Below the pieces are notes generated by a model, which worked only from the letters and a program-made list of their open reading frames with translations, was not told where the DNA came from and did not search any database. Shown here piece after piece: positions 11,143 through 32,467 of a DNA stretch of 64,000 nt (the first letter of the stretch is position 1; each line of letters opens with the position of its first letter). Origin of the DNA: Rhizobium rosettiformans (lineage in GTDB: Bacteria > Pseudomonadota > Alphaproteobacteria > Rhizobiales > Rhizobiaceae); contig NZ_CP032405.1 in the NCBI RefSeq assembly GCF_016806065.1, forward strand, positions 690,001-754,000, in the 5' to 3' direction. Position numbers and translations under genes: made by a program.

Positions 11143-11145
11143 TGC

Positions 11146-14781: not shown

Positions 14782-15849
14782 ATGTCTGACCGCAGCCGTT
14801 CAGCCTCTGCGTGGTGGACATCGTCGGCACATGCTGATCGACGCCCATTCCTGATTGGGCGCAACCAGATCCAGTCGGCATTTCGCGCTTGCTTCGCCGA
14901 ACAGGACTTCGTCGAGGTCGACACAGCGACCCTGCAGGTATCCCCCGGCAACGAGGCCCATCTGCATGCCTTTCAGACCGAAGCGATCGGTCATGATGGC
15001 TCTGCTGTGCCGCTCTACCTGCACACCTCGCCGGAATTCGCCTGCAAGAAACTGCTCGCCGCCGGCGAGACCCGTATCGTCTGCTTCGCGCATGTCTATC
15101 GAAACCGTGAGCGAGGACCGCTGCACCACCCGGAATTCACCATGCTGGAATGGTATCGGGTCGGCGAAAGCTATGAACAACTGATGCAAGACTGCGCCGA
15201 ACTGATTGCCTTGGCCGCACGCACCGCCGGAACACGGCAATTCGCATTCGCCGGCAAGACCGTCGACCCCTTCGCCGAACCCGAACGCATCTCCGTTGCG
15301 GACGCCTTCGCACACCACGCCGGCATCGATCTGTTGGCCACGATCGGAACGGATGGCACGACGGATCGCGATGCCCTGGCCGGGCAACTCGCAGACGCTG
15401 GCATTCGCACGGCAGATGACGACACCTGGGCCGACCTGTTCAGCCGGGTCATAGTCGAGAAGGTGGAACCCAAGCTCGGCAACGGCCGCGTGACCATGCT
15501 GGATCGTTACCCGGTGGCCGAAGCAGCGCTTGCGCGCCCGTGCCCCGACGATCCCCGTGTCGCGGAACGCTTCGAGGTCTATGCCTGTGGCGTCGAACTC
15601 GCCAATGCCTTCGGCGAGCTGACGGATCCTGCCGAACAGCGCCGGCGCTTCGAAGCCGAAATGGTCGAGAAGAACCGCGTCTATGGAGAGACCTATCCCC
15701 TCGATGAGGACTTCCTCGAAGCCCTCGCAGACATGCCGGACGCATCGGGCATCGCGCTCGGCTTTGACCGTCTCGTGATGCTGGCGACAGGCGCGCTGAG
15801 GATTGACCAGGTGATCTGGGCGCCGGTGGCGGAGACGCATTTTGGCTGA
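14782..15849 (+). CDS. epmA: EF-P--(R)-beta-lysine ligase
   Basis: A truncated class II lysyl-tRNA synthetase homologue (PoxA/GenX) that attaches beta-lysine to Lys34 of EF-P. The 355 residues hold the catalytic core only, without a tRNA anticodon-binding domain. Motif 2 appears as [25 protein letters not shown] (seen as FAHVYRNRE and [11 protein letters not shown]), and motif 3 as [13 protein letters not shown] near residue 330. It is divergent from efp and overlaps epmB by eight bases, which ties the three genes functionally. Confidence 0.93.
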
Positions 15850-16882
15850 GACGACCCTACGCTCCATCGCCGACCTCGTGGCACAAGGCCTCGTTAGCGA
15901 GGAGGAAACCACAAGGCTCGACGCCGTGGCCGAACGCTACGCGATCGCACTCACTCCCACGGTGCGCGCCCTCATCGACCCGACAGATCCGCACGATCCC
16001 ATCGCCGCCCAGTATATTCCCTCATCTGCCGAGCTAATCGATCATCCGGCAGAGCGCCTCGATCCGATCGGCGACCATCCGCATTCCCCTGTCGAGGGTA
16101 TCGTTCACCGTTATCCTGACCGGGTTCTCCTGAAGCTCGTGCATGTCTGTCCGGTCTATTGCCGCTTCTGCTTCCGCCGCGAAATGGTCGGTCCGCAGGG
16201 CGACGGCAATCTTGCGGGTGAGCGCCTGAAAAGCGCGCTCGACTATATCGCAGCAAATACGGGCATCTGGGAGGTCATCCTGACGGGCGGCGATCCACTG
16301 ATCCTGTCTCCACGACGCCTGCGGGACGTGTCCGAGCGTCTGTCTGCCATGGATCATGTCAAGGTCCTGCGGATCCACACCCGCGTGCCCGCCGTCGATC
16401 CCGAGCGCATTACGGCCGTGATGGTCGAGGCGCTGACGCTGAGCGGCAAAAGCGTGATCCTTGCGCTGCACGCCAACCATCCCCGTGAACTGACGCCGGA
16501 TGTGCGCGCAGCTTGTCGGCGGCTGATCGCCGGCGGCGTCCTGTTGGTCAGCCAGAGCGTGCTCCTCAAGGGCGTGAATGATGACGCCGACACGTTGACG
16601 GCGCTGATGCGCGGCTTTGTCGAGACCGGCGTGAAGCCTTACTATCTGCATCACCCCGACATGGCGCCGGGCACCGGCCACTTCCGCCTCTCGATCGCCG
16701 ACGGTCAGGCCCTGATGCGGGAACTCCGCACGCGGATATCCGGCATCTGCATCCCGCACTATATCCTCGATCTGCCTGGCGGCCACGGCAAGGTGGCGCT
16801 TGGCGAAGACGCTGTCCGCGATCTCGGTGATGGACGGTACGCGATACGAGACCGCAAGGGCGAGGAACACGTCTACCCTTGA
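15842..16882 (+). CDS. epmB: EF-P beta-lysylation protein (lysine 2,3-aminomutase)
   Basis: Radical SAM enzyme that turns L-alpha-lysine into (R)-beta-lysine for EF-P. The 346 residues contain the iron-sulfur motif CPVYCRFC with Cys103, Cys107 and Cys110, followed by FRREMVG, and the PLP lysine region near the C-terminus (HGKVALGED). The start is a TTG that overlaps the last codons of epmA, and GGAG lies about nine bases upstream. Coupled translation with epmA is likely. General KamA aminomutases are longer; size and context favour EpmB. Confidence 0.92.
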   Translation: MAETTLRSIADLVAQGLVSEEETTRLDAVAERYAIALTPTVRALIDPTDPHDPIAAQYIPSSAELIDHPAERLDPIGDHPHSPVEGIVHRYPDRVLLKLVHVCPVYCRFCFRREMVGPQGDGNLAGERLKSALDYIAANTGIWEVILTGGDPLILSPRRLRDVSERLSAMDHVKVLRIHTRVPAVDPERITAVMVEALTLSGKSVILALHANHPRELTPDVRAACRRLIAGGVLLVSQSVLLKGVNDDADTLTALMRGFVETGVKPYYLHHPDMAPGTGHFRLSIADGQALMRELRTRISGICIPHYILDLPGGHGKVALGEDAVRDLGDGRYAIRDRKGEEHVYP

Positions 16883-16978: not shown

Positions 16979-18694
16979 TTGACAGACGGGACAACAGCGG
17001 TGGTGGACATTTCGGCTTCGAGGGCGCGTGATCGAAAAACGCTGCCTCATTTTCTTTCGTCGCCAATCACTTGGCTCTGGCTAACGGTCGCCGCGGTTCT
17101 CGCCCTGCTGACACTCCCGCTCGCCGTGCCGATCGGCCCGATGTACTGGGACACCTATATCTATCTGGATGCCGCACAGCGCATCCGAATGGGCCAGATC
17201 CCGAGCCTCGACTTTTCCACGCCCGTGGGCGCTTTGGGCTACTACCTCTTCGCCTGGGGCCTGGATCTCCTCCCGCGAGCGCAACCGCTTCTTCTCGTGC
17301 AATGGTCACAGCTTGCGGTCACTGCACCGCTGATGACGCTGGTGCTCATCGACGCCGAAAAGAAAAGCCGCGCTGTGGCGTTCCTCCTGCTGATCCCCTT
17401 TCTCGTCTTTGCCGCCTTCCCGGCCAATGCCCAATTCTTCCATTCCTATCCGGGCCTTGACGGCTTTGGCATCTACAACCGGCAAACCTCGCTTCTCCTC
17501 TATGTCCTGACATCAGGCCTCGTTTTCATGCGCGGCGGCCCGCGCTTTGCGCTCTTCTGCGCCCTGGCCATGCTGGCCCTGTTTCTCACCAAGATCACAG
17601 GCTTCCTCGTCGGCGGCCTGATCGGCCTCGGCGCCGTGCTCGCCGGCCGCATTTCACTTGCCAATCTCGCACTCGCGGCAATCGCCTTTTTGCTTCCACT
17701 CGCGGTTATCGAACTCGGCACAGGGATGATCTCGGCCTACATCCGGGACATCCTCGACCTGATCGCGATGAATCAGGATGCCTTGCTTCCGCGTTTCCTG
17801 ACCGTCGCCTCGGGCAAGCTCGACGTGCTGATGCCGGCAGGTCTGCTTCTGCTGGTGATGATCTGGGCGGATCTCAACTATGCATCCGAGCCAAGACGGT
17901 TCTTCGACCGCTCCTTCTGGTGGTTCGGGATTTCCCTGCTCGGCGGAACGATCCTCGAGACGCAGAACACGGGCAGCCAGGAATTCATCTTCATCTGGCC
18001 GGTTCTGCTGATGGCCTATGACCGACTGCCGCAAGTGGTCGACCGGACGAAGATAGCCTTTCTCGTGCTGGCCGCCTTCTGCACCGTCCCGACACTCAGC
18101 AAGGTCGCACACAAGACCCTGCGATCGGTCGCGGTCGCTCCAACCTATGTAACGCCGGATGTTCCTCTGCTGCGGAATATGCAGCAGGTCTCGACCCGCA
18201 AGGACGTGATGGAGCGAGCCGTGTTGCTGGAGAACCATTACGCCACCCAGGGCGCGGCATATATTGACCTCGCAAACCAGGGACAACTGCCGAGCTGGCA
18301 ACTCTACAGCGAGCTCGACTATCAAACCTACTGGATCATTTCCGCCGACATCCTGGTCAAAGCGCTGCTGCAGTTCGAGACCGATAACCAGATCCGCCTG
18401 CAAAGTCTGATGACCCTTGATTTCGTCAATCCATTTCCCTGGATCCTCGACCGCGACGCGACCCGCAAGATCCAGATCGGGGCAGACCCTTTCCGAACCG
18501 TAAGACAGGTTTCATCCGAAGCACTGAAAGCGGTTCAAGCGACCGACGGCGTACTTCGCCCGAAATGCCCTGTCACGACCGGGCGGCGGATGCTTGAGGA
18601 ACGTTATGCGCAAGCGCTCGCCGGACGCCAGGTGGTCGCACTCGACCCTTGCTGGGATCTCCTGCTGCGTCCGGGCATCTTAAAGGCCCAATAA
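16979..18694 (+). CDS. polytopic membrane protein, GT-C glycosyltransferase-like
   Basis: A 571-residue protein with roughly ten hydrophobic segments between residues 30 and 375, followed by a soluble C-terminal part of about 190 residues. After the first helix comes a loop with MYWDTYIYLDAAQRIRMG. An acidic residue in the first large loop is the catalytic hallmark of GT-C enzymes that use polyprenyl-phosphate sugars. I do not recognise a closer family. It lies next to, and convergent with, the operon that may make a polyprenyl-phosphate pentose, so it is a candidate transferase for that donor. The start is uncertain: TTG at 16979, or GTG at 17000/17003. Confidence 0.6.
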   Translation: MTDGTTAVVDISASRARDRKTLPHFLSSPITWLWLTVAAVLALLTLPLAVPIGPMYWDTYIYLDAAQRIRMGQIPSLDFSTPVGALGYYLFAWGLDLLPRAQPLLLVQWSQLAVTAPLMTLVLIDAEKKSRAVAFLLLIPFLVFAAFPANAQFFHSYPGLDGFGIYNRQTSLLLYVLTSGLVFMRGGPRFALFCALAMLALFLTKITGFLVGGLIGLGAVLAGRISLANLALAAIAFLLPLAVIELGTGMISAYIRDILDLIAMNQDALLPRFLTVASGKLDVLMPAGLLLLVMIWADLNYASEPRRFFDRSFWWFGISLLGGTILETQNTGSQEFIFIWPVLLMAYDRLPQVVDRTKIAFLVLAAFCTVPTLSKVAHKTLRSVAVAPTYVTPDVPLLRNMQQVSTRKDVMERAVLLENHYATQGAAYIDLANQGQLPSWQLYSELDYQTYWIISADILVKALLQFETDNQIRLQSLMTLDFVNPFPWILDRDATRKIQIGADPFRTVRQVSSEALKAVQATDGVLRPKCPVTTGRRMLEERYAQALAGRQVVALDPCWDLLLRPGILKAQ

Positions 18695-18742: not shown

Positions 18743-20206
18743 TCATTTCACCTGAGCGGTGACGAAATCCTTCACGATCCTGATGATGCCGCGTGACATC
18801 ACCTCATCCAGCGCCGCGATGAACTGGTCGACATGTTCGCGTTCGCAGATCAGCGGCGGCTCAAGCCGGATGACATTGCGGTTGTACTCGGTGAAGGCGA
18901 CGAGCACGCCGTGATCACGCAGCAGATGGCTGCCGATGAAGCCGGGCAACGAGCCCTTGAGCTTGTCGTCGAGCATCGCGATGACCGGACGGAGCACCAG
19001 CGGCATGGTCTGCGAGAAGTCGTGGAATTCGAGACCGACCATCATGCCCTGACCACGAACTTCCTTGATCAGGCTCGGATAGCGAGTCTGCAGGGTCCGG
19101 AGCTGATCAAGCAGGTAGTCGCCGACCTCTGCCGTGCGGTCGATCAGACCCTCGTCATAGAGGACGTTGAGCGCCTCGATCGAGGTAATGCAGGCCTCGC
19201 CGATGCCGCCGAAGGTCGCCATGGCATGGATCATCGCCGTCTTCGGCGTGCCATAGGCTTTCATGTAGACCTCGCGTCGGGCAATCATCGCCGCCATCGC
19301 CGTCTTGCCGCCGCCAAGCGACTTGGCAAGGGCCGTGACATCAGGCACGACGCCATAGTGTTCGAACGCATAGAACTTGCCGGTACGGCCGAGACCGCAC
19401 TGGACTTCGTCGGCAACCCAGAGCACGCCATACTGGTCGCAGAGCTGGCGTAGCTTCTGCCAGAAAGCCGCATCCGCCTGGATGATGCCGCCGCCGCCCT
19501 GGACGGTTTCGAGCACGATGACACCGATCTCCGGATCGCTGCGGAAGGCGTTCTCGATGGCTTCGATATCGCCGAACGGCACGCGAACGGTGTTGTCGAC
19601 GAGCTTGAACTGACCACGATAGAGCGAGCCGTCGGTGATCGAGAGCACGCCCTTTGTCTTGCCGTGGAAAGAGTTCTCGGCATAGACGACCTTCGGCTTC
19701 TGCGGGCCAGCGGCACGTTCAGCCACCTTGATTGCAGCCTCCATGGCTTCCGATCCGGACGAGCCGAGAAAGACCATGTCGAGATCACCCGGCGAGCAGG
19801 CTGCCAGATTATGGGCGAGCGCCGTCGCATATTGCGACATGAAGGCGATCGCGATCTCGTGGCGCTTCTCGTCCTGGAAGGTCTTGCGCGCCTCAATGAT
19901 GCGCGGGTGGTTATGGCCGAAGGCCAAGGAGCCGAAGCCGCCGAAGAAGTCGAGGATCTTCCGGCCGTTCTGATCGTAGTAATACATGCCCTCGGCACGC
20001 TCGACCTTGATCTTGTGGAAGCCGAGCAACTTCATGAAATGCAGCTGGCCGGGATTGAGGTGCTGCGTGAAGAGGTCGGTCATCTGCGGAAGGTCAAGCG
20101 CCTTGGCCTGGTCGACCGACAGAAGCTTCGGCTTTTCGGTCTTGACGCGCGGCGCCTTTGCCGCATCGAGGGTCGGCTGTTCGTTCAGTCTGACTGCAGT
20201 ATTCAT
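18743..20206 (-). CDS. class III aminotransferase in the pentose-lipid operon
   Basis: PLP-dependent enzyme of 487 residues, last gene of a five-gene minus-strand operon. Seen are the GSSGSEAMEAAIKVAER phosphate site, the ring-binding Asp in VADEVQCGLGRTGKF and the Schiff-base lysine in TALAKSLGGGK. It has about 40 extra residues before the usual fold. The start at 20206 follows GAGGAGAC. Annotation by similarity would call it an acetylornithine or 4-aminobutyrate aminotransferase. Its position ten bases after an epimerase and downstream of UbiA and DprE1-like genes instead suggests amination of a sugar or of a small acceptor used on the glycan. The substrate cannot be read from the sequence. 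Confidence 0.85.
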   Translation of the reverse strand: MNTAVRLNEQPTLDAAKAPRVKTEKPKLLSVDQAKALDLPQMTDLFTQHLNPGQLHFMKLLGFHKIKVERAEGMYYYDQNGRKILDFFGGFGSLAFGHNHPRIIEARKTFQDEKRHEIAIAFMSQYATALAHNLAACSPGDLDMVFLGSSGSEAMEAAIKVAERAAGPQKPKVVYAENSFHGKTKGVLSITDGSLYRGQFKLVDNTVRVPFGDIEAIENAFRSDPEIGVIVLETVQGGGGIIQADAAFWQKLRQLCDQYGVLWVADEVQCGLGRTGKFYAFEHYGVVPDVTALAKSLGGGKTAMAAMIARREVYMKAYGTPKTAMIHAMATFGGIGEACITSIEALNVLYDEGLIDRTAEVGDYLLDQLRTLQTRYPSLIKEVRGQGMMVGLEFHDFSQTMPLVLRPVIAMLDDKLKGSLPGFIGSHLLRDHGVLVAFTEYNRNVIRLEPPLICEREHVDQFIAALDEVMSRGIIRIVKDFVTAQVK

Positions 20207-20216
20207 CACTGTCTCC

Positions 20217-21227
20217 TCACGCAGCCTTCGATGCTGCGGCCTGGGGTTCAAGACGGCCTTCGACCGATTTCCGGTATTCGCTATAGGCTGCGATCAGCAT
20301 GTCCTCGTCGCGATACTGCGGCACCCAGCCGAGTTCGCGTTCGCCCTTGGACACGTCGAGAATGCACATCTCGTCGGCGATCAGATATTGCTCCGGGTCC
20401 ATCAGCGGCATGTTGAGAAGGTCGAGGAAATCGAGCGTGCGCTTGACCGCCCAGGCGGGCGTCGGCACCAGGATCGACTTCGAGCCGGCATGTTTGACCA
20501 GATCGCCAAGCAGCTTCTTTACCGGTGGCGGATTGAGAGAGCCGAGATTGTAGACCTCGTTCGGCACGCCAGCCTTGTAGGCGGCGTGCGCCGCCGATGC
20601 GCAATCGAACACCGAGATGAACTGATAGGGGTTCTTGCCCGAGCCGATCATCGGCACCGGCAGATTGTTGTCGATCAACTTGAAGAGCTTGGCGAGAATG
20701 CCGAGACGCCCCGGACCGATGATCAGACGCGGGCGAAACAGGCTGACATTCATGCCGCGCTTGCGCCAGTCGGCCGCCAGTTCCTCGGTCTTCAGCTTGG
20801 AAAGCCCGTACTCGCCGAGCGGCTTGCACGGATGGTCCTCCGTCTGCGGCCAGCTATAGGTATGGCCATAGACCATGTCGGTGGTGAAATGCACCAGCGA
20901 CTTCGCGCCGGCCGCATCCATCGCCTTGATGATGTTTTCAGTGCCGTAGTAATTGACCGGGAAGAAGAAGTCGTGCCGCTTGGCGCGCACCTGGATCGGC
21001 GACAGCATCTTGGCGGACAAGTTGTAGACCATGTCGTCGGCGCCGATGCCGAGCTTCCGGATCGAATCCGGATCCGTGACATCCGTCGGGACGAAGCGTG
21101 CATCGCGATAATGCGGCAGGTCGCTCTTCACGATGTCGGCGACCACGACCTCGTGCCCGTCGGCGAGCAGTCTGGGTGCCAGATAGCGACCAACGAAGCC
21201 GTCTCCACCGAAGATGATGTGTTTCAT
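20217..21227 (-). CDS. NAD-dependent epimerase/dehydratase (extended SDR)
   Basis: A 336-residue extended short-chain dehydrogenase with the nucleotide site GGDGFVGRYLAPRL at residues 7-20 and the catalytic pair YGLSK near residue 140, preceded by FTTDMVYG. Such enzymes act on nucleotide sugars or similar hydroxyl carbons. In this operon it follows a DprE1-like oxidase, so it could supply the reduction that mycobacteria perform with DprE2. DprE2 is a shorter classical SDR of about 250 residues, so this would be a substitute, not an orthologue. An ordinary nucleotide-sugar epimerase is the simpler alternative. Confidence 0.82.
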   Translation of the reverse strand: MKHIIFGGDGFVGRYLAPRLLADGHEVVVADIVKSDLPHYRDARFVPTDVTDPDSIRKLGIGADDMVYNLSAKMLSPIQVRAKRHDFFFPVNYYGTENIIKAMDAAGAKSLVHFTTDMVYGHTYSWPQTEDHPCKPLGEYGLSKLKTEELAADWRKRGMNVSLFRPRLIIGPGRLGILAKLFKLIDNNLPVPMIGSGKNPYQFISVFDCASAAHAAYKAGVPNEVYNLGSLNPPPVKKLLGDLVKHAGSKSILVPTPAWAVKRTLDFLDLLNMPLMDPEQYLIADEMCILDVSKGERELGWVPQYRDEDMLIAAYSEYRKSVEGRLEPQAAASKAA

Positions 21228-21281
21228 GTTCTAAACCCCGTTTTCTTCTTGGTTTTTTGTCGTGTCAGATTGGTTTGAAGC

Positions 21282-21704
21282 TCAGGTCTCGACCGCCTTC
21301 GCGATCGAGCTGTCTTCCGCAGTTTTCGTGCTGCTGCTGCCGCTTTGGGCAATCAGGACGGTGCCGATGCAGATGAAGGCGATGCCGGCAATCTTCAGTG
21401 TGCCGATCTCCTCCTTGAAGAGCAGCCAGGCGCAGAGCGCGACAGCGACATAGGCAAGGCTGAGGAAGGGATAGGCGAAGGAAAGATCGACCTTCGAGAG
21501 CACGTAGAGATGCGAGGCCATCGACACCACGAACATGGCAAGACCGAAGAAGACCCAGGGATTGAACAGGATCTGGAAGATCCGTTGGATCATAGTATCG
21601 GCCGAGAAGCTGATCGGTCCAAGCGTGATCATGCCGTATTTCAGCATCAGCTGGGCGGCTGCATTGGTCATCACCGTGAACAGGATGAAGGGGATGTATT
21701 TCAT
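21282..21704 (-). CDS. small EamA/SMR-type membrane transporter
   Basis: A 140-residue protein with four predicted membrane helices, starting MKYIPFILFTVMTNAAAQL and containing SFAYPFLSLAYVAVALCAW in the third helix. It resembles small multidrug resistance-like halves such as ArnE/ArnF, which flip undecaprenyl-phosphate aminoarabinose across the inner membrane. Placed between a DprE1-like gene (34 bases) and an epimerase gene (54 bases), a lipid-linked sugar flippase is the most sensible role. The Ser/Thr-rich tail after residue 122 is not part of the fold. Drug export is the alternative. Confidence 0.72.
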   Translation of the reverse strand: MKYIPFILFTVMTNAAAQLMLKYGMITLGPISFSADTMIQRIFQILFNPWVFFGLAMFVVSMASHLYVLSKVDLSFAYPFLSLAYVAVALCAWLLFKEEIGTLKIAGIAFICIGTVLIAQSGSSSTKTAEDSSIAKAVET

Positions 21705-21738
21705 GATGTCCTCTCGTAGGATGGTCTGGCCGGTCTCG

Positions 21739-23067
21739 TCATGAGCGCGGTGAATTCAGTGCGGCGCGTTGCCAGAAGTTTGATGAGAACCCCGGATCGC
21801 GCCACGTCTCGAGTTCGGACCAGTTGGGAAAGCCGGCCTTGAAGGTGGCCGGGCTCATCCGCTGGTCCTTGTAGGGATTGACCCGCCCTCCGGCATTGAT
21901 CGTGAGGCGGTCGAGTGTCTCAAGAAGCGCAAGCGTCCGCGCTCCGCGGTTGGGAAAGTCCATGGTCAGCGTGTAGCCCGGTCGCGGGAAAGACAGGAGA
22001 CCGAGAGAACTGATATCGCCGAAACGCTTCAACACTGTCAGGAAGGAGGCGTGACCAGCATCCCGGCTCGCCTGGAGCAACAGCGGGATCGTCTGCCGTG
22101 CGGCTTCGAACGGAATGACGCTCTGATGCTGGAAAAGGCCACGCGGACCATAGAGCCTGTTCCAGTGACCGATACCGTCGAGGGGATAGAAGAAGCTGCC
22201 GTAGCTCGCCCGGTGCATGCCGTGTTTCCGGCTCTTCGCGGCGAAATAGGCTGCGTTGAAAGCCGAAAGGCTGAGGCGGTTGAGGGCCGAGAATGGAAGA
22301 TCGAAGGGGACGGACAAACGGCTGGCCCGCGTCGCGACCTCCCGATTGCCATTGTCGGAATGATTGCCGGTGATCAGCACGCCGCGCCCGGCGGAACGAC
22401 CAGCAGCCAACTGGTCGACCCAGGCCACCGCATATTCGTTGATCCGGTCGGCCTCTTCGGCCCGATCGAAGTAGTCGTCAAGATTGGCAAAGGCGACGAC
22501 CTCTTCGTCAACATCCAGCGAAGACACACGCATCAGCTTGAGCCGTACGCGGGTGATGATCCCGGTCAGTCCCATGCCGCCGATCGTCGCGGCAAACAGA
22601 CGTGGATTGCTCATTGCCGAACAATGATGGCTTTCGCCGTCGGAACGGAGAAGCTCGAAACTCTCCACATGGCAGCCAAACGTGCCGCGCAGATGGTGGT
22701 TCTTGCCGTGGACATCGTTGGCGATGGCCCCGCCGAGCGTCACATGGCGCGTCCCCGGCGTCACCGGCAGGAAGAAGCCATGCGCTGCGATCAGGGCTAT
22801 GACATCCTCGAGCGTGACGCCGGATGCAGCGTCTAGGTGACCGCTTTCTGGGTCAAGCGACATATCTGCCAAGGGCGCACGCATCGGCACCAGCGCGCCG
22901 CCGTCATTGTGACAGCTGTCCCCATAGGACCGACCATTGCCGAACGGGAGAAGCGTCAAACCAGCGCCATCCGCTGAGCCCCGCAATCTCGCGAGGGCGT
23001 CTGCCACCGGCAACGCCATGCGCTGGCGCCGATCGACTCTTCCGAAGCTATCAAAAGCCCCCAGCAT
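21739..23067 (-). CDS. DprE1-like FAD oxidoreductase
   Basis: A 442-residue vanillyl-alcohol-oxidase-type flavoprotein. The FAD domain shows FGNGRSYGDSCHN near residue 45 and GGAIANDVHGKNHH near residue 115, both typical of DprE1, which oxidises the 2'-hydroxyl of decaprenylphosphoryl ribose. The C-terminal block LLSFPRPGYTLTMDFPN and GGRVNPYKDQR aligns with the DprE1 active site as I remember it: the essential lysine (418 in M. tuberculosis) is kept, while the cysteine hit by benzothiazinones (387) is Thr here. The ATG at 23067 overlaps the stop of the UbiA gene by one base; a GTG three bases earlier is equally possible. Confidence 0.85.
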   Translation of the reverse strand: MLGAFDSFGRVDRRQRMALPVADALARLRGSADGAGLTLLPFGNGRSYGDSCHNDGGALVPMRAPLADMSLDPESGHLDAASGVTLEDVIALIAAHGFFLPVTPGTRHVTLGGAIANDVHGKNHHLRGTFGCHVESFELLRSDGESHHCSAMSNPRLFAATIGGMGLTGIITRVRLKLMRVSSLDVDEEVVAFANLDDYFDRAEEADRINEYAVAWVDQLAAGRSAGRGVLITGNHSDNGNREVATRASRLSVPFDLPFSALNRLSLSAFNAAYFAAKSRKHGMHRASYGSFFYPLDGIGHWNRLYGPRGLFQHQSVIPFEAARQTIPLLLQASRDAGHASFLTVLKRFGDISSLGLLSFPRPGYTLTMDFPNRGARTLALLETLDRLTINAGGRVNPYKDQRMSPATFKAGFPNWSELETWRDPGFSSNFWQRAALNSPRS

Positions 23068-24506
23068 CACACCATCCCGGCTGCGATGAGGAGCACCGCG
23101 CCAATTGCGATGAAAATCTGACTACGCCAGTCCAAGGCAATGAACACGACGGGATCGTCGTTCATTTCCCGGCGATGGGCGAGCACCCAGACGCGCATGT
23201 TGATGTAGAGCACGATCGGCACCAGCGGCCAGATCAGCCACGGCTCGGAATAGAGGTTACCGACGACGTCGCTGTTGATGTAGAGCGCGAGAACAAGCGC
23301 GGCCGTGAAGCCGGACGAGACGCCGCTCTGGCCCACAATGCCGATGTCTTCTGGCCTGTAACCGCGGCCAGCGATCCGTGACTGCTCCGGGGCTCCAGAA
23401 TTCTGCAGTTCGACATAGCGCTTCAGGAACGCGAGCGAGAGGAAGAAGAACAACGCAAAGGCCATCAGCCAGAAGGACATTGGGATGTTCGCCGCCAGCT
23501 TGCCGCCGAGGAGTCGCAGCGCATAGAGCCCTGCGAGGCAGATGACGTCGAGCAAAAGCATCCGCTTGATGGCCAGCGAGTAGGCCGTAGTGCTAACGAT
23601 ATAAACAGCGATAATCGCGGCGAACATCGGCGGCTGGAAGAAGCAGATCGCCGCAGCAATCGCCAGGAGTGCAGCAGAGCACGAAAGGCCGAAGGGGATC
23701 GACAGGGCACCACTGGCAAAGGGTCGATGCCGTTTGCGCGGGTGCACGCGATCGAGCGGCAGATCGATGATATCGTTGATGATGTAGATCGCCGAGGCCG
23801 ACGCCGAAAAGGCGAAAAAGGCCAGCGTCGCCGAAAACATCGTTTCGGCAATCAGGAAATCATGGGCCAGCACCGCCGGAGCGAACACCAGAAGGTTCTT
23901 CAGCCACTGATGCACCCGCAACATCTTGAGATATGTCTTGAAACTGGTGCGGGGCGCGTCGAAATGCATGGTGTCATGCGCCTGCTGGAAGCGCGAGGCC
24001 GCCCGGTCGGGCGCAACGACGACGGCGTTGCGGGCACGGTCGAAGATCGCAAGGTCAGCGCGATCATTGCCCGCATAGTCGAACCCGTATTCCCCGTATT
24101 CGTTGACCAGCGCCGAGGCTTTCGCCGCGCTGGCGAGATTGATCCCGTCGCGGGTGGCAAACACCTTCGAGAAAATCCTGAGATGCGCGGCAACAGCCTG
24201 CGCCAGCGGCTCTGCAGCAGCAGTCGCCAGGACGATCGTGCGGCCTGAAGCACGTTCCGCCCTGAGATAGTCGAGGAAGTCCTGACGATAGGGCAGCCGC
24301 GATACGTCGAGCGTTACGCGTCGGGCAAGTTCGAGTTTGAGGCGCGCCTTGCCGGCCAGCGCCCAGATCGGAAGCAGAAAGACGATGAGCGGGTTGGTCT
24401 TGAGGGCGAGAAAGATCGTCTCCCACAGAAGATCCGTCGCAATTAGCGTCCCGTCCAGATCGACCGCAAGCGGCAGATCCCGGCTTTCTTGTAATCTGGC
24501 GTCCAT
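23067..24506 (-). CDS. HAD phosphatase-UbiA prenyltransferase fusion
   Basis: A 479-residue two-domain protein, first gene of the operon. Residues 1-190 are a HAD-like domain with LAVDLDGTLIATDLLWE and a later ATAAAEPLAQAV segment. Residues 200-479 are a UbiA-type membrane domain with the first Asp-rich motif INDIIDLPLDRVHPRKRHRP and a second near YSLAIKRMLLLDVICLAG. The UbiA part resembles decaprenyl-phosphate phosphoribosyltransferase (Rv3806c type), which uses PRPP. The HAD part could remove the 5-phosphate of the product. The ATG at 24506 is chosen over an upstream TTG because the protein then begins close to the HAD fold. Confidence 0.83.
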   Translation of the reverse strand: MDARLQESRDLPLAVDLDGTLIATDLLWETIFLALKTNPLIVFLLPIWALAGKARLKLELARRVTLDVSRLPYRQDFLDYLRAERASGRTIVLATAAAEPLAQAVAAHLRIFSKVFATRDGINLASAAKASALVNEYGEYGFDYAGNDRADLAIFDRARNAVVVAPDRAASRFQQAHDTMHFDAPRTSFKTYLKMLRVHQWLKNLLVFAPAVLAHDFLIAETMFSATLAFFAFSASASAIYIINDIIDLPLDRVHPRKRHRPFASGALSIPFGLSCSAALLAIAAAICFFQPPMFAAIIAVYIVSTTAYSLAIKRMLLLDVICLAGLYALRLLGGKLAANIPMSFWLMAFALFFFLSLAFLKRYVELQNSGAPEQSRIAGRGYRPEDIGIVGQSGVSSGFTAALVLALYINSDVVGNLYSEPWLIWPLVPIVLYINMRVWVLAHRREMNDDPVVFIALDWRSQIFIAIGAVLLIAAGMV

Positions 24507-24847: not shown

Positions 24848-26062
24848 GTGTCTCGCATAGGTGGCGATTTGTCCTTGCATCTGGTCTTCGTCACGTCGCT
24901 CGTTGCACAATCCAATCCTTCAACAGGTTATGAACTTGCCAATGCAGCCCTGCTGGAAGGCTTGGCACGGGCAGGCGTGCGCACCACGGTCATCGGCTGC
25001 GCCTGGCCAGGACAGACCGTCGCTCCGGATGCAGAGCCCGCTCTGGGCGAGGTGGAAGTGCGAACCGAAAAGGCTGGCCCCTGGCTTAAGATCAAATGGC
25101 TACTCATGTCCCTTGCGACGGGACTACCGATGTCGAGCGCCAAGCTGCGTGTGATACGAAAAGAGGCTGTGCGAAGCGCAATCACGGCCGCTGGCCCGTT
25201 CGACGGCTATGTCTTGAACGGCGTCGCCCTCGCGGGAGCCTTTCCGGATCTCTTCACCGGCAAGCCATCGATCTTCGTCGCTCACAATGTCGAGCATCGC
25301 TCGTCGGCCGAGAACGCCCGCAACGCAGGTTCGTTGATGAAGCGCATTCTGTTCGCCCGTGATGCGCGATTGCTGAAGACACTCGAGCACAGGCTCAGGG
25401 ACCGGTCGACCGGCGTCGTGACCTTTGCAGCCGAAGACGCGGTCGATCTCGGCGTTCCGCCGGACCGCTCCGTATTCCTCCCCTTGAGCACTGCGAGACC
25501 GACGCAGCTCCCGGAGACAAGAAATCTGGCGCACGATCTTGCCCTCTTGGGTACCTGGACATGGCATCCCAATCGGATCGGGCTGGAATGGTTCTTGAAC
25601 GATGTAAAGCCGAAGCTGCTCGATGATGTGCGCATCCGTGTCGCTGGCAGCACGCCCGCCGATCTTGCCTCTGCCTGGCCCGATGTCGATTTCGTCGGAA
25701 GGGTGGATCGCGCGACGGACTTCGTCGCAGCAAGCGCCGTGATCCCGCTGATCAGTCGGGCCGGCACGGGCGTCCAGTTGAAGACGATTGAAACCTTCTC
25801 GCTCGGCCTGCCAAGCGTGGCGACGACAAGCTCGGTCCGCGGCATTGCAGCGATCCCGGACAATTGCACCATTGCTGACGATCCCGAAAGTTTCGCTGCA
25901 GCGCTCAACCACAAGATCCTTCGGGCGCGGGCGGGCGACCTTCAGCGGCTCGATGGCCGGGTCTTTGCCGAAGCACAGGCACAGCTGATGGATGCCGGCA
26001 TCAGACAGATGCTGAACATGCTGACCGGGGCGACATCAGGCGCAAAGGAAGCTCTGTCATGA
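24848..26062 (+). CDS. glycosyltransferase, GT4-like
   Basis: A 404-residue GT-B type protein. The N-terminal part has LVFVTSL and GYELANAALLEGLARAG as in the acceptor domain, and AHNVEHRSSAENARNAG near residue 140. The C-terminal part has a GTWTWHPNRIGLEWFLNDV segment, then PLISRAGTGVQLKTIETFSLGLPSVAT, which matches the donor-binding E-x7-E region of GT4 enzymes. The start is a GTG at 24848; later TTG codons at about 24869 are possible because the first eight residues look atypical. It overlaps the next gene by four bases (ATGA). Likely adds a sugar to an exopolysaccharide repeat unit; donor unknown. Confidence 0.78.
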   Translation: MSRIGGDLSLHLVFVTSLVAQSNPSTGYELANAALLEGLARAGVRTTVIGCAWPGQTVAPDAEPALGEVEVRTEKAGPWLKIKWLLMSLATGLPMSSAKLRVIRKEAVRSAITAAGPFDGYVLNGVALAGAFPDLFTGKPSIFVAHNVEHRSSAENARNAGSLMKRILFARDARLLKTLEHRLRDRSTGVVTFAAEDAVDLGVPPDRSVFLPLSTARPTQLPETRNLAHDLALLGTWTWHPNRIGLEWFLNDVKPKLLDDVRIRVAGSTPADLASAWPDVDFVGRVDRATDFVAASAVIPLISRAGTGVQLKTIETFSLGLPSVATTSSVRGIAAIPDNCTIADDPESFAAALNHKILRARAGDLQRLDGRVFAEAQAQLMDAGIRQMLNMLTGATSGAKEALS

Positions 26063-26922
26063 GGACAGCCATTGTTACCGCGAGCTATCACGCGGATTTC
26101 GAACGTTTCCGTTTGCTCTGCGAGACGCTGGACACGCATGTCACGGAATACACCAAACATTATGTGCTCGTCGAAGACCGCGATGTTCCGCTGTTCCGGC
26201 AACTGCAATCGCCGCGCAGGGTAATCATCGGAGAGAAGGACCTCTTGCCATCTTGGCTGAAAGTCTTTCCCGATCCGCTGACCATGGGCCGACGCCGCAT
26301 CTGGCTATCCTTGAAGACCAAGCCGCTTCGCGGTTGGCATGTGCAGCAGTTTCGCCGCATAGCGATCGCCGACATCGTCGAGGACGATGCGTTTCTCTAT
26401 CTGGATTCCGATGTCGCTTTCCTTCGGCCCTATGATTGCAGCCAGCTCTGGCGCGACGATGCGCTGCGCCTGCTGGTCAGGCCTGGTGCCTTGACGGGAG
26501 ACTCCATGGGCGAACATCGCCGCTGGTCCGCGAATGCCGGCACGTTGTTGGGTCTGCCCGAAACGCAGCACTCCACGAACGACTATGTCGGCACGATGAT
26601 CGCCTGGAAACGAAGCAGCATCAGAGAGATGTGTGCGCGGATCGAGAGCGTCACGGGCGAGCACTGGATCGCGGCGATGGGCAAGCAACGCTGTTTCTCG
26701 GAATGCATGATGTATGGCCGCTTCGTGGATGATGTCGAGCACGGCGCGGGGCACTTCCACGACCAGACAGAGCTTTGCAAGGTCTTCTGGCTGGCTCCGC
26801 CGCCCACGGAAGACGAATTCCGTGCCTTCGTGGCGGACATGGCACCTGAACAGGTGGCGCTCGGCATGCAGTCTTTCCTGGGTCTTGAACCCGCAGAAAT
26901 CCGACGTATCCTCGGCCTATGA
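26059..26922 (+). CDS. DUF6492-like putative glycosyltransferase
   Basis: A 287-residue soluble protein opening MRTAIVTASYHADFERF. It carries DDAFLYLDSDVAFLRPY near residue 115, a D-x-D motif as in nucleotide-sugar binding glycosyltransferases, and TNDYVGTMIAWKR and AMGKQRCFSECMMYG later. This matches the DUF6492 type found in rhizobial polysaccharide loci. The ATGA overlap with the GT4 gene means coupled translation. Function in exopolysaccharide or surface sugar assembly is inferred from motif and place. Confidence 0.7.
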   Translation: MRTAIVTASYHADFERFRLLCETLDTHVTEYTKHYVLVEDRDVPLFRQLQSPRRVIIGEKDLLPSWLKVFPDPLTMGRRRIWLSLKTKPLRGWHVQQFRRIAIADIVEDDAFLYLDSDVAFLRPYDCSQLWRDDALRLLVRPGALTGDSMGEHRRWSANAGTLLGLPETQHSTNDYVGTMIAWKRSSIREMCARIESVTGEHWIAAMGKQRCFSECMMYGRFVDDVEHGAGHFHDQTELCKVFWLAPPPTEDEFRAFVADMAPEQVALGMQSFLGLEPAEIRRILGL

Positions 26923-26953
26923 CTACGACTGGTCAGGTTCGCCGCGAGAACCG

Positions 26954-28216
26954 TCAAACCCGCTTGGCCGGCAGCCTCAGGCTCGAATAGGTGAAGATCG
27001 CCGAGATCACATAGAGACCGGCAAAGACACCATTCAAAGCGATGATCCAGTCCTGCCCCTCATGTGCGAAACTGTTGAGCAGCAGCGCGATCAGCCCTGC
27101 CTTGCTCAGTGTCAAAAGGGCAAGGCATAGCGTACGCAGCCAGCTTTGCCCACGCGCATACATCAGCTCCCCCTGGTACTCCGCGAGATTGCGAAACCCG
27201 GGTACAAGCAGAACGAGCGGCAGCAGTTCGGCGACCGGCGCCACGTTGCGGCCGAGTGCATTCGGATAGAGATGCAGGAGGAAGGCAAGCGTCGCGAGCC
27301 CGGCAACGGAGACGATCATCAATCCCGCTTCGATGAGCACCCTGATTTTCAGCGACCTCAACATGTCAGGGCTCTGCATCAGCTTCTGCACCAGGATCGT
27401 ATTGAAGGAGCGGATCGGCAGCGCAGTCAGGTCAACGACCCGCATGATGATCGCATAGAGACCGGCAACGGCCGGCCCACCGATCCCGAGTACCATCAGC
27501 TTGTCGAGCTCCGACTGCAGGTAGAACAGCAGTTCCGCACCCGCGACGGCGAGCGAATCCTGTACGCGCCGAAGATAGAGCCGCATATCGAAACGCAGGC
27601 GAACGCGGGGGTAGAAGTAGAGGGCAACGACCAGCGATGCGGCATTCGCACCAATGTACCACCATGCCCAATGGTCGAGGTCCTGGACTGAGGCCTGGCT
27701 CCAGAAGAGGCCGGCCGCGGCCGCGCGTGTTGCAGTTCCAAGGATCACAAGGACGGCAGCGAGCCCGAAACGCTTGAGCCCATTGTTGACGATGATGACG
27801 ATCTCGGCCGACCGCCAGAGCAAAATCTCGGCGATCATCACCAGGGAAAAGGTGAGCAGACCGACATCGTCGGAAAAGAACAGAAAATAGATCAGCAGCG
27901 CCGCGATGATGACGAGCGGCAGCGAGAGAAGAGAAGCGAGCAGATAGCCAACTGTGTAGACGCCGAGAAGTCGCGGCTTGACGACAGCAATGCGATAGAG
28001 TGGTGAACTGAAACCGAGCGCCAGAAGCCGGGAGAGGACGAGCCCGGCGCCAGACGCCGTGGCGAAGATCCCGTAGTCCGCAAGGGGCAGTGTGTTTGCC
28101 AGCACAACAAAGTAGGCGAGAGACACGACCAGTCGCCCGGCAGATCCCGATATCACCGAGACATAGGCGTGCAGGAGCTGCCGGTTTGATGAAAGGTGCC
28201 GAAGGATCGCGTTCAC
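26954..28216 (-). CDS. Wzx-like polysaccharide flippase
   Basis: A 420-residue integral membrane protein of the MATE/polysaccharide exporter type with about 12 helices. It has the early ISGSAGRLVVSLAYFVVLANTL and YGIFATASGAGLVLSRLLALG segments typical of lipopolysaccharide/exopolysaccharide flippases, and a central charged helix pair with LYLQ-like SELDKLMVLG. It would move lipid-linked repeat units to the periplasmic face. The GTG at 28216 has GGACACC upstream; another GTG at 28249 adds 11 residues. It runs against the two transferase genes before it and away from the chain-length gene after it. Confidence 0.75.
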   Translation of the reverse strand: MNAILRHLSSNRQLLHAYVSVISGSAGRLVVSLAYFVVLANTLPLADYGIFATASGAGLVLSRLLALGFSSPLYRIAVVKPRLLGVYTVGYLLASLLSLPLVIIAALLIYFLFFSDDVGLLTFSLVMIAEILLWRSAEIVIIVNNGLKRFGLAAVLVILGTATRAAAAGLFWSQASVQDLDHWAWWYIGANAASLVVALYFYPRVRLRFDMRLYLRRVQDSLAVAGAELLFYLQSELDKLMVLGIGGPAVAGLYAIIMRVVDLTALPIRSFNTILVQKLMQSPDMLRSLKIRVLIEAGLMIVSVAGLATLAFLLHLYPNALGRNVAPVAELLPLVLLVPGFRNLAEYQGELMYARGQSWLRTLCLALLTLSKAGLIALLLNSFAHEGQDWIIALNGVFAGLYVISAIFTYSSLRLPAKRV

Positions 28217-28290
28217 GTGGTGTCCAGAGTTGCTGAAGGCGCAGGTCACATTTCGGACGGCGGCGACACCTGCAGAAGCTACGTCCCAAC

Positions 28291-28314
28291 GGTTAATTTT
28301 CCGATCTTTTAACC
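28291..28314. promoter_or_regulatory. AT-rich inverted repeat before the chain-length gene
   Basis: GGTTAA (28291-28296) and TTAACC (28309-28314) are perfect arms around a 12-base spacer, inside a strikingly AT-rich stretch (28285-28350) of otherwise GC-rich DNA. The site lies between the divergent flippase and chain-length genes and is a candidate operator for both. Confidence 0.4.
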
Positions 28315-28377
28315 ATTTGTTTTTGATAAAAAATTAAATTTGCGCCACGCGAACCATTTCCCGAAGCAAGGGCTGAC

Positions 28378-30072
28378 ATGTATCTGCGCGATGATCGCAC
28401 CAGTCACGGAGGCAAAGAGCCCGGCGCCGCAGGTGCGGAGCGCCTATCCGGACACTCCGCAGACACCCGTGTCGGGCGACCTTCCCTGCGGGACATGCTG
28501 GAACGCCACGACGACTACCTCGATTTTCTGCGCGCCCGCGTCTCCATGCTTGAGGGCCAGGTCAACAGCATGGAGGTCGGGGAATCCAGACCTTCCGCTC
28601 CGTCTGCTGTCCCGAAACAGCAGCCCTCGCCCGAAATCTCCACGGACAATCGTCAGGATGAAAACCGCGACGGCACCGCCGTTCCGCGGGATCAGACGGA
28701 ATGGAAGCCTCTGATCGATCCCTTCATCGTCGTCGACATTCTCAAGCGGTCCCATCGCATCCTGATTGCCTCGACGGTGATCGGTGGCCTCTTTGGGTCC
28801 GCCTATGCACTGACCCTACCGAAAATGTGGGTGGCAAGCAGTGACATCCTCGTAGACCCCCGACAGATCCGAACCGTCGGCGACCAGTTGACCACCGACC
28901 AACTGCCGACAGATGCGTCGCTCGCCGTGGTCGAAAGCCAGGCGCGCATCGTCAAGTCGAACAGTGTCTTGCTGAAAGTCATCGAGCAGGCCGACCTCAA
29001 GCAGGACCCGGAATTCAACGGGACCCTGAAGCCCTCCGGCCTGAGCACCTTCTGGTCGAGTGGATCCCAGAGTGACGCTCAGAGCATCGAGTCACGCGTT
29101 CTGAACCACCTTCACGAAGTCATCGACGTGAGCCGGGATCAGAAGACATTCATCTTTTCGATCTCCGCAGAAACGCGGGATCCGGAGAAGTCCGCGCGTC
29201 TGGCCAACATCGTCAGCGGCGTCTTTCAGCGTGAATTGGCCTCAATGCAATCCGACGCTGTCCGCCGCACATCGGACGAACTGTCGAGCCGCCTTACCGA
29301 CCTGCGCATGAAGCTCGAAGAGGCGGAAAAGGCCGCCGAAAGCTTCCGCAACTCGAATGACCTCGTGAATGTCGATGGCAGACCGATCGTGGACAACGAT
29401 CTGAAACTGCTGAATGAAAGACTGAGTTCGCTGCGCGTCGAAACTGCGGGCCTGCGCGCCAAGATTACCAGTATCGCAAAGATGGCGGCCTCCAGCGGCG
29501 GTGAACTGGCGCTCCCCGAAGACGTGAGTTCCGACACGATCGCAGTCCTGCGCACGCGTTATGCCGATCTGCGCAAGGAACTCGAATCGATCGCGGCCCG
29601 CTATGGACCGCAACACCCGAGATATATCGAAGCACAATCGCAGGCCAGCGGGATGCTCAACCAGATCCGCGAAGAACTCGGCCGCATCCGCAGCGCCCTG
29701 CAGGTAGAGCTGGATCGCTCCCTCCAACAGGAAGTGGCACTTACCAGCCGCCTACGGGAACTCAAGGACACTCAGGCGTCGAACAATGACAGCCTCGTCA
29801 CCTTGCGCGAACTCGAGCGCGAGGCGGCGGCACGCCGTTCGGTCTACGAATCCTTCCTGCTCAGAACCCGCGAAACCGGGGAACAGGAAGCCATTACACT
29901 CGCCAATATTCAGGTCCTGTCGGAGGCGCGCCCACCGCTTGATCCGGTCGGCCCCTCTCGCAAGGTCATTGCACTCGGCGGCCTGATCGCTGGATTTGGC
30001 TTCGGCGTTCTGCTCGCCCTTGGCCTCAATCTGACTCATTTGAGGAAACGCCGCGAAGGCGCACAGGCCTGA
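28378..30072 (+). CDS. polysaccharide co-polymerase (Wzz/ExoP N-terminal type)
   Basis: A 564-residue inner membrane protein that sets chain length in Wzy-dependent polymers. Residues 1-105 are a polar cytoplasmic segment, the first membrane helix is at about 125-145 (ILIASTVIGGLFGSAYAL), then a Wzz domain (MWVASSDILVDPRQIR), a long periplasmic coiled coil (about 290-490), and a second helix at about 530-552 (LGGLIAGFGFGVLLALGL). Proteins such as ExoP go on with a cytoplasmic tyrosine kinase; here the chain stops 12 residues after the helix, so the kinase is absent. No separate kinase gene is nearby. Confidence 0.85.
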   Translation: MYLRDDRTSHGGKEPGAAGAERLSGHSADTRVGRPSLRDMLERHDDYLDFLRARVSMLEGQVNSMEVGESRPSAPSAVPKQQPSPEISTDNRQDENRDGTAVPRDQTEWKPLIDPFIVVDILKRSHRILIASTVIGGLFGSAYALTLPKMWVASSDILVDPRQIRTVGDQLTTDQLPTDASLAVVESQARIVKSNSVLLKVIEQADLKQDPEFNGTLKPSGLSTFWSSGSQSDAQSIESRVLNHLHEVIDVSRDQKTFIFSISAETRDPEKSARLANIVSGVFQRELASMQSDAVRRTSDELSSRLTDLRMKLEEAEKAAESFRNSNDLVNVDGRPIVDNDLKLLNERLSSLRVETAGLRAKITSIAKMAASSGGELALPEDVSSDTIAVLRTRYADLRKELESIAARYGPQHPRYIEAQSQASGMLNQIREELGRIRSALQVELDRSLQQEVALTSRLRELKDTQASNNDSLVTLRELEREAAARRSVYESFLLRTRETGEQEAITLANIQVLSEARPPLDPVGPSRKVIALGGLIAGFGFGVLLALGLNLTHLRKRREGAQA

Positions 30073-30084
30073 ACGAAAGACAGC

Positions 30085-31419
30085 TCAGGCAAGTATTCGC
30101 GGGATGGGCACTCTCGCCACGAGCCTGAGGCCGATCACCCCGAAGAAGCAGAGCATCCAGACCGGGTCCATGCGACGGAAGAAGAAGCTCTCCATCATCG
30201 CATTCAGCGTTGTGAAGAAGACGATCATCATGAAGAAGTCCGCGAGCAACCTGTTCTCCCGGACCGGCCTGCAGCGCATGTAGTCGACCAGCGGAAGCAG
30301 GATCAGGACCGCCAGCGCGATGATTAGGGCAGGTATCCCCATGGAGATCGCGATATCGAGATAGCCGTTATGGGCATGCACGATGCCGCGCACATCCCAG
30401 TCGAGATAATAGGGATTGGCGGCATAGCGGACCAGATCCGTACTCCAGAAACTCTCATAGCCGAAGCCCGTGAGCGGGCGATCGGCCAGTGCATCGAGCC
30501 CGAACTTCCAGATCGAGACACGGCCGGTAAATGTCGGGTCAATGCCGAGCCACAGAACGAACTGGTGGATCGGTTCGATGAGGACGGACCCGAAGGTCAG
30601 GAGAGCGAAGGCAAGCTGGCAGCAGAACACCGCGATCGGTGTCAGCACGCGAAGCCCAACCGCACTCGGAACAAGAACCAGGAGCGCCGCAACGGGCACC
30701 AATCCGAGTGTGGTCTTGGAGCCGGTCTGACTGACGAAAATGAGTGCCGACAGACCGATCAAGACGCCGACCCAGCGGTCGCCGCGCCGCCAGAGATAGA
30801 TGGCAGCAAAGGCGAATGCCGCCATGACCGGCCCGGCGATATTTTTGTGCGTGAAGACCCCGCGCCAGAGATAGGAATTCTGAGGCTCCAGCGCGTCGAA
30901 GCCATGGGTTGCCAGAGAGGGGGCCAAGGGTAGCCCGGCATAGCAGATGAAGATCAGCATGCCTGCGACCACGCTCAACATGCGGGCATAGCCATCTCCA
31001 TCCTGCGGCAGTGCTAGGACGGTCACGATCGTCATCATCACGATCAGGGTCAAAATGATACCGCGCAAGGTCGCACTAGGATCTGGAGCGGTGAACCCCG
31101 AGAACACAAGAAATCCGATCATCAGCAACCAGGCCGGACCGATCAGGGACGGCAGCCTGCGCAGATCGGCCAGCGTCAGCAGTGAGCAGAGCGCGATGAG
31201 ACCAAGCAGGCCAAAGCCCAGCTGATTAATTAGATTGCCGCCTTCTTCCACACCCTCATGAACCGGCGAGAAGGGCTGAAACGAGATCAGCATGACCGCA
31301 AACAGCAGGATGCTGACAACAACGGCCGCCCGGCGCAGCGTCTGCGCGGGATAAGCAGGCCTCACCCCCGCGACGTCGCGGTCAGCGCCCGTCCGTATGT
31401 CGATACTGTTCATCGGCAT
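30085..31419 (-). CDS. O-antigen ligase/polymerase-type membrane protein
   Basis: An approximately 444-residue protein with 11-12 membrane helices and the Wzy_C signature: FTGRVSIWKFGLDALADRPLTGFGYESFW followed by VHAHNGYLDIAISMG near residue 345. This is the large periplasmic loop of ExoQ/Wzy and WaaL enzymes, where a conserved His (HAHNGYL) is important. As it lies with Wzx-like and Wzz-like genes, a repeat-unit polymerase is favoured over a lipid A ligase. The start is uncertain (31461, 31419 or 31413) and overlaps the end of the GT2 gene. Confidence 0.8.
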   Translation of the reverse strand: MPMNSIDIRTGADRDVAGVRPAYPAQTLRRAAVVVSILLFAVMLISFQPFSPVHEGVEEGGNLINQLGFGLLGLIALCSLLTLADLRRLPSLIGPAWLLMIGFLVFSGFTAPDPSATLRGIILTLIVMMTIVTVLALPQDGDGYARMLSVVAGMLIFICYAGLPLAPSLATHGFDALEPQNSYLWRGVFTHKNIAGPVMAAFAFAAIYLWRRGDRWVGVLIGLSALIFVSQTGSKTTLGLVPVAALLVLVPSAVGLRVLTPIAVFCCQLAFALLTFGSVLIEPIHQFVLWLGIDPTFTGRVSIWKFGLDALADRPLTGFGYESFWSTDLVRYAANPYYLDWDVRGIVHAHNGYLDIAISMGIPALIIALAVLILLPLVDYMRCRPVRENRLLADFFMMIVFFTTLNAMMESFFFRRMDPVWMLCFFGVIGLRLVARVPIPRILA

Positions 31420-32410: not shown

Positions 32411-32467
32411 ATACCAAAACTGTTGATACCAGCTTAACCCCTCAGCCGTTTCGGACGGCTGGCCGTC

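Follow-up and report, generated by a model that had tools for sequence, protein, structure and literature searches.

What does a class III aminotransferase contribute to an operon that begins like the mycobacterial route to lipid-linked arabinose? The question is raised by five minus-strand open reading frames at 18743..24506 of a 64,000-nucleotide window of Rhizobium rosettiformans (GCF_016806065.1, NZ_CP032405.1, positions 690,001-754,000 of the forward strand; coordinates below are those of the window). They follow one another in the order UbiA-DprE1-SMR-extended short-chain dehydrogenase/reductase (SDR)-aminotransferase, and both the families and the gaps of -1, 34, 54 and 10 bases given in an earlier note on this DNA were recovered when the sequence was re-read, although an open reading frame tool places the starts of the first and last genes (HAD-UbiA and aminotransferase) further upstream than the coordinates used here. 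It is reasonably probable, judging from sequence comparison, that the operon serves to make a polyprenyl-phosphate-linked aminopentofuranose donor, the ketone precursor being aminated by the aminotransferase and the product flipped and moved to a surface acceptor. The DprE1-like enzyme would, by homology, oxidize C2 to a ketone; the aminotransferase would turn the ketone into an amine where ordinary arabinose systems use reduction by DprE2, as complementary occurrence and natural deletions suggest; the extended SDR would perform further tailoring, perhaps C3 epimerization like ORF13 of Citrobacter; the ArnE/F-related SMR protein would flip the lipid-linked sugar; and a convergently encoded protein resembling glycosyltransferases of fold C (GT-C), or in other genomes a second GT-C-like protein, would transfer it to the acceptor. 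We infer 2-amino-2-deoxy-pentofuranose on polyprenyl phosphate as the best candidate for the product rather than as a result. More tentatively, with doubt slightly outweighing belief, one might posit a widespread alphaproteobacterial pathway in which the DprE1 product is transaminated to polyprenyl-phosphoryl-2-amino-2-deoxy-pentofuranose and attached to a surface glycan by either of two sequence-unrelated GT-C-like proteins.

Because of complementary occurrence and natural deletions, it is most likely the aminotransferase rather than the SDR that occupies the place of DprE2. Among 150 genomes sampled from the order (thresholds of 1e-40 for DprE1, 1e-30 for the DprE2-type SDR and 1e-90 for the aminotransferase), DprE1 was found in 23, which divide without overlap or remainder into 17 with a DprE2-type SDR and 6 with the aminotransferase; random assignment would yield such a partition once in 100,947 cases, a figure that ignores kinship. 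The 23 genomes fall in 14 families, a single one of which has both states. The window's own genome has no DprE2-type gene at 1e-30, its best DprE2 match reaching 74.4 bits as against 125-275 bits in three DprE2-type control genomes. A broader sample from the class, in which an HAD-UbiA relative was detected at 1e-40 in 34 of 385 genomes (in some over the UbiA part only), gave 33 loci besides that of the window's genome, fetched with about 8 kb on each side where the contig allows. Eighteen of these carry DprE1 and exactly the same 18 carry a classical SDR of one family, while the SDR or aminotransferase of the window was seen at none of the 33, weak relatives (23-28% identity) being present at six. 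Two members of this DprE2-type family were tested, of which one matched PF00106; they score 160 and 168 bits against the NCBIfam DprE2 model, short of the 250 that it requires, and both exceed the cut-off of NF005489. Twenty further loci divide into 13 with a classical DprE2-type SDR and no orthologous aminotransferase (three having weak relatives, at 24-26%, of the window's SDR or aminotransferase) and seven with the five-gene module.

This partition bears on the division of labor suggested in the earlier note, with the extended SDR standing in for DprE2. In this scheme, which we now consider unlikely, the donor would be unmodified polyprenyl-phosphoryl-arabinose and some other molecule would be the substrate of the aminotransferase. 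The two genes do share a common context, all 103 SDR-bearing genomes of a sample from the family being among its 106 aminotransferase-bearing ones, and one genome (G425) retains UbiA-DprE1-SMR-SDR and the convergent GT-C-like gene without the aminotransferase, as that division would allow. However, a separate contig of G425 carries a DprE2-type gene (scoring 197 bits against the DprE2 model and 340 bits against NF005489), such that the SDR can persist after loss of the aminotransferase where a DprE2-type gene is present; the SDR search covered part of the order sample, and G425 may have company. The opposite deletion is seen in G548 and G717, where UbiA-DprE1-SMR-aminotransferase-GT-C lacks an SDR gene between SMR and aminotransferase; SDR relatives elsewhere are weak in G548 (at most 53 bits) and absent at 1e-12 from G717 (79% complete), and the best DprE2-like matches of the two reach 64.4 and 61.7 bits, respectively. 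A third member of their genus, G648, possesses the SDR at that position. When G548 and G717 are compared, their aminotransferase genes differ by 0.008 nonsynonymous (dN) and 0.35 synonymous (dS) substitutions per site, i.e., strong purifying selection, and the enzyme appears to work without the SDR. The natural deletions are therefore the ground on which the ketone is assigned to the aminotransferase and the SDR treated as a separate tailoring enzyme.

The features of the SDR itself (20217..21227, minus strand; Pfam Epimerase) also sit poorly with a DprE2 role. Its closest chains in the PDB are GalE-like epimerases (best 1.8e-20), and the GGDGFVG motif, D31, T116-D117-M118 and Y140/K144 are invariant or almost so. 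Strand beta-2 ends in Asp, as is the rule for SDRs using nicotinamide adenine dinucleotide (NAD); Thr-Asp-Met stands where dehydratases have Thr-Asp-Glu, and YxxxK is present. The protein may thus be classed as an extended SDR of the NAD type, perhaps a C3 epimerase or a catalyst of a second oxidation; of features that would suit a C3 epimerase of the ORF13 type, it shows the GalE resemblance and YxxxK only.

A second oxidation is the core of another alternative, somewhat less likely still than the SDR as DprE2, namely that the SDR makes a second ketone, e.g., at C3, which the aminotransferase then aminates, with DprE1 merely adjusting C2. The pairing of an NAD-type oxidoreductase with an aminotransferase is frequent in amino-sugar pathways, and two loci (L053 and L066) have the SDR and the aminotransferase without a linked DprE1; yet the selection on the aminotransferase noted above operates in a lineage without the SDR, and what the aminotransferase complements is DprE2, which uses the ketone made by DprE1. 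It is less probable again that the aminotransferase serves the acceptor or amine metabolism of the same surface structure, for although class III enzymes accept a wide range of amines and the matches listed include public names such as 'aspartate aminotransferase family protein' and 'ornithine--oxo-acid transaminase', this leaves unexplained both the DprE2 complement and a second association with UbiA-DprE1 at locus L156.

Amination of the DprE1 ketone is, in contrast, consistent with that second association. L156, from another order, encodes SMR, SDR and aminotransferase proteins 65% identical to those of the window, together with a UbiA without HAD (31% identical across residues 193-384) and a DprE1 that is 41% identical. 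In a tree built from 57 DprE1 rows, i.e., 31 of DprE2 type and 26 of the module (counting the aminotransferase-less L158, the SDR-less L201 and L202, and L007, labeled as module, with its aminotransferase cut by a contig end), the module/DprE2 label needs two changes, a single change being allowed by 0 of 200 bootstrap trees; the DprE1 of L156 pairs as sister with the one from a DprE2-type locus (support 100/100). Either the SMR-SDR-aminotransferase set was combined with a UbiA-DprE1 pair on two occasions or the pair was swapped beneath the set; both histories point to a working link between them. The amino-modified product that the earlier note had entertained as a possibility is the most likely reason for the presence of the aminotransferase, as the complement of the DprE2-type genes.

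The first two genes of the operon, which the earlier note took for the signature of decaprenyl-phosphoryl-arabinose formation, can be read as a route through polyprenyl-phosphate-ribose to a keto-pentose, and their residues agree with this. The HAD phosphatase-UbiA fusion (23067..24506, minus strand; Pfam UbiA and HAD) is a predicted polyprenyl-phosphate phosphoribosyltransferase with a 5'-phosphatase; it scores 624 bits against PRK08238 of NCBIfam, above the cut-off, and its UbiA part matches the mycobacterial decaprenylphosphoryl-5-phosphoribose synthase 8j8j at 4.6e-26. The NDxxDxxxD motif residues N244, D245, D248 and D252 are each present at 85 of 85 aminotransferase-bearing loci, and the protein of the window retains R363/E366 of loop IV and the HAD residues D16/D18 (nucleophile Asp). 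When the motifs are paired by eye, these correspond to positions that were mutated in ORF15 of Citrobacter, which PMC11127046 establishes as a polyprenyl phosphoribose synthase of the HAD-UbiA kind; its product in a membrane assay of this first step, farnesyl-P-ribose, has m/z 435. By sequence, then, the protein has the marks of such a synthase with a fused HAD phosphatase, and its predicted substrates are phosphoribosyl pyrophosphate (PRPP) and polyprenyl phosphate. A 4-hydroxybenzoate prenyltransferase, i.e., UbiA proper, was rejected, since the TIGR01474 score is 29.6 bits where 275 would be required and the phosphoribosyltransferase residues are retained. At the thresholds used, the own genome has one match each for HAD-UbiA, SDR, aminotransferase and DprE1, SMR being outside that search, with an extra weak match to the DprE1 query at 1.8e-9.

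The DprE1-like oxidase (21739..23067, minus strand; FAD_binding_4, the flavin adenine dinucleotide-binding domain), a predicted source of lipid-linked 2-keto-pentofuranose, matches DprE1 in the PDB at 1e-66. Seven residues that we take to act in the DprE1 active site, Y60, H132, K134, Q334, Q336, K367 and K418, are all retained, as Y48, H120, K122, Q313, Q315, K347 and K400. The positions of DprE1 N385 and C387 are Thr, the latter being T368; at this second position 81 of the 83 rows that have the aminotransferase show Thr and 30 of the remaining 33 show Ala, L007 and L158 being counted among these 33 despite their place in the module group. Because its score for NCBIfam DprE1 (NF053785) is 319 bits where 500 are required, the oxidase is to be called DprE1-like rather than a curated equivalog. 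A Brucella ovis DprE1-like protein is entered in PMC9045290 as 'Potential L-gulonolactone oxidase', its closest structure being DprE1 4AUT.

The small membrane protein (SMR; 21282..21704, minus strand; EamA) falls below the NCBIfam cut-offs for both ArnF (58 bits, cut-off 99) and ArnE (43 bits, cut-off 92), and is thus related to them only; the flippase role previously suggested for it holds up to the extent that sequence makes it a candidate for flipping a lipid-linked sugar. It was matched at all 80 of the module loci described below versus 0 of 31 DprE2-type stretches, of which 10 have GtrA proteins and none an ArnE/F-like protein. At loci L120 and L125, HAD-UbiA is followed by an ArnE/F-like SMR protein, and these are perhaps plain ribofuranose systems with this type of flippase. 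The aminotransferase (18743..20206, minus strand), the predicted keto-pentose aminating enzyme in place of DprE2, scores 301 bits against Aminotran_3 of Pfam, and its best profile is PigE at 358 bits versus a cut-off of 850; for neither it nor the SDR was a listed NCBIfam model found at cut-off (25 of 69 models being listed for the aminotransferase). Among solved structures, 4ppm and putrescine aminotransferase come closest to it. With K295, the lysine for pyridoxal phosphate (PLP), and D266 present in 86 of 86 rows, it has the sequence marks of a PLP-dependent class III aminotransferase. A protein database search with it, limited to 8000 scored candidates and a list of 120 close relatives, speaks to close contexts only; the public names of its relatives quoted above are probably misleading.

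Convergent with the operon, and omitted from the earlier note, is a gene at 16979..18694 (plus strand) for a GT-C-like membrane protein of 571 residues, a candidate periplasmic aminopentose transferase. It has no Pfam or NCBIfam match at 0.001. Its model, with a predicted local distance difference test (pLDDT) score of 88.2, matches ArnT at 8.5e-6, AftB at 1.9e-3 and AftA at 7.1e-3 in Foldseek, and D58 and D64 are invariant in 46 rows; the modeled structure thus suggests a GT-C fold with an acidic residue in the first periplasmic loop. In the family sample, 65 of the 66 genomes with this protein also have the aminotransferase, and the remaining 41 of the 106 aminotransferase-positive genomes all have a second GT-C-like protein. 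The two could not be treated as a single family (profile comparison probability 0.9%, E 0.063). Where the GT-C genes are displaced, their neighbors look like housekeeping genes by eye and give no clue to the acceptor.

The module is real and widespread, and its order is not due to chance. A scan of genomes of different species with the SDR found 384 relatives, of which the best 80 loci were kept by SDR likeness; the exact five-gene order, for which the earlier note had suggested a search in other genomes, is present on one strand at 78 of these 80. Represented among the 80 are Agrobacterium/Rhizobium, Shinella, the Brucella/Ochrobactrum group, Devosia, Mesorhizobium, Phyllobacterium, Aminobacter and Aurantimonas relatives, and at most loci the window's SDR and aminotransferase have closer counterparts than its UbiA and DprE1. 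At one (L030), the oxidase, SMR and GT-C-like matches are fragmented and UbiA, SDR and aminotransferase are one long match each, possibly through decay or assembly error. A genome of the same genus, G634, has no match to the SDR, aminotransferase or GT-C-like gene; the module is therefore accessory even inside the genus.

Several points weigh against amination of a DprE1 ketone, beginning with the kinship that the chance figure leaves aside. The DprE2 query of the order sample was taken from G425 itself, and the natural deletions amount to one genome (G425) and one genus, in which G717 is incomplete. L053 and L066, alone among the 80 loci and as judged over the operon stretch only, are without DprE1 between UbiA and SMR and do not easily fit a replacement of DprE2. 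PigE, 4ppm and putrescine aminotransferase presumably use terminal aldehydes rather than sugar ketones. At L120 and L125, neither DprE1 nor aminotransferase lies near the ArnE/F-like protein, and this flippase type is therefore not specific to amino sugars. Six of the 23 kept loci without the 571-residue gene have neither GT-C-like gene within about 8.5 kb. Phyllobacterium trifolii has the module (L076), and a word search of a lipid A study of this species found none of the pentose words sought, the single match being in a reference title.

Parallels may be struck with four known systems. ArnBCDEFT makes 4-amino-4-deoxy-L-arabinose, an aminopentose on polyprenyl phosphate, and shares with our locus the ArnE/F flippase, to which the SMR protein is related, and ArnT, matched in fold by the 571-residue protein. 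The Arn pathway starts from UDP-glucuronate and its aminotransferase, ArnB, is of a different class, whereas no such nucleotide-sugar enzyme was recognized among the five operon genes with Pfam and NCBIfam. The mycobacterial decaprenyl-phosphoryl-arabinose pathway (Rv3806c, DprE1, DprE2) likewise has a UbiA-type phosphoribosyltransferase and a DprE1 oxidase, most of whose key residues recur here; the operon differs in its aminotransferase, ArnE/F-related protein and HAD-fused phosphatase, and in the absence from the genome of a DprE2-type gene at the thresholds used. The three-component pentofuranose systems of Citrobacter youngae O1/O2 combine a HAD-UbiA fusion, an extended-SDR epimerase (ORF13, converting lipid-linked ribofuranose to xylofuranose), a flippase and a GT-C transferase, as described in PMC11127046, which also names arabinofuranose systems with DprE1/E2 homologs. 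Their flippase is of the MATE type and their GT-C belongs to GT136, and the word 'aminotransferase' is absent from the main text of that paper. The rhizobial noeCNHOP genes for Nod factor arabinosylation encode products that have been ascribed to steps of decaprenylphosphoryl-arabinose formation and a proposed phosphatase, NoeN, but end in noeP (a proposed arabinosyltransferase) and lie with nod genes, and no aminotransferase is seen in the available parts of the two sources (PMC5080398, PMC2443382).

What would be new is the aminotransferase in the place of DprE2, a placement well supported by the genomic comparisons; the plan of HAD-UbiA, epimerase, flippase and GT-C is already published. 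In the open-licence literature searched, no listed title or abstract opening links an aminotransferase to DprE1/UbiA in these bacteria, and transamination of the DprE1 ketone was not met. If true, the proposal would mean that bacteria build lipid-linked amino sugars directly from PRPP without a nucleotide sugar, and that the DprE1 ketone, an intermediate of a pathway targeted by tuberculosis drugs, also enters another route in nature. Many rhizobia and their relatives would then carry a cationic pentofuranose as an unrecognized surface feature, with an effect on charge comparable to that of aminoarabinose.

Adjoining the operon at 24848-33535 is a polysaccharide cluster of GT4, DUF6492, Wzz/GNVR, Wzy_C, GT2 and GH5 genes, and comparable clusters lie next to the module in Rhizobium, Shinella and Devosia, with GT2, Wzx-type and GH10 genes recognized by Pfam (in representatives from L018 and L032) and relatives of Wzy_C and DUF6492 by BLAST. 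At most loci of Phyllobacterium, Mesorhizobium and Aminobacter the neighbors are different, such that the setting beside exopolysaccharide genes pointed out in the earlier note applies to the window and the former three genera and fails for most loci of the latter three; a polysaccharide acceptor is possible in part of the group. A gene of the GH10 family is present in the similar clusters of the Rhizobium, Shinella and Devosia relatives. Arabinosylation of Nod factors was set aside, no nod gene having been recognized among the 20 window proteins that were scanned, with the rest of the window outside that scan. Genes for EpmA-like and lysine-2,3-aminomutase-like (EpmB-related) proteins adjoin the GT-C-like gene at 14782-16882 (plus strand); a tie to lysylation of elongation factor P was rejected, EpmA/EpmB matches occurring in L003-L006 only among the 80 kept loci. 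At 9862-12630 (plus strand), a second class III aminotransferase and an aldehyde dehydrogenase, with a LysR regulator alongside, resemble an amine catabolism locus unrelated to the operon.

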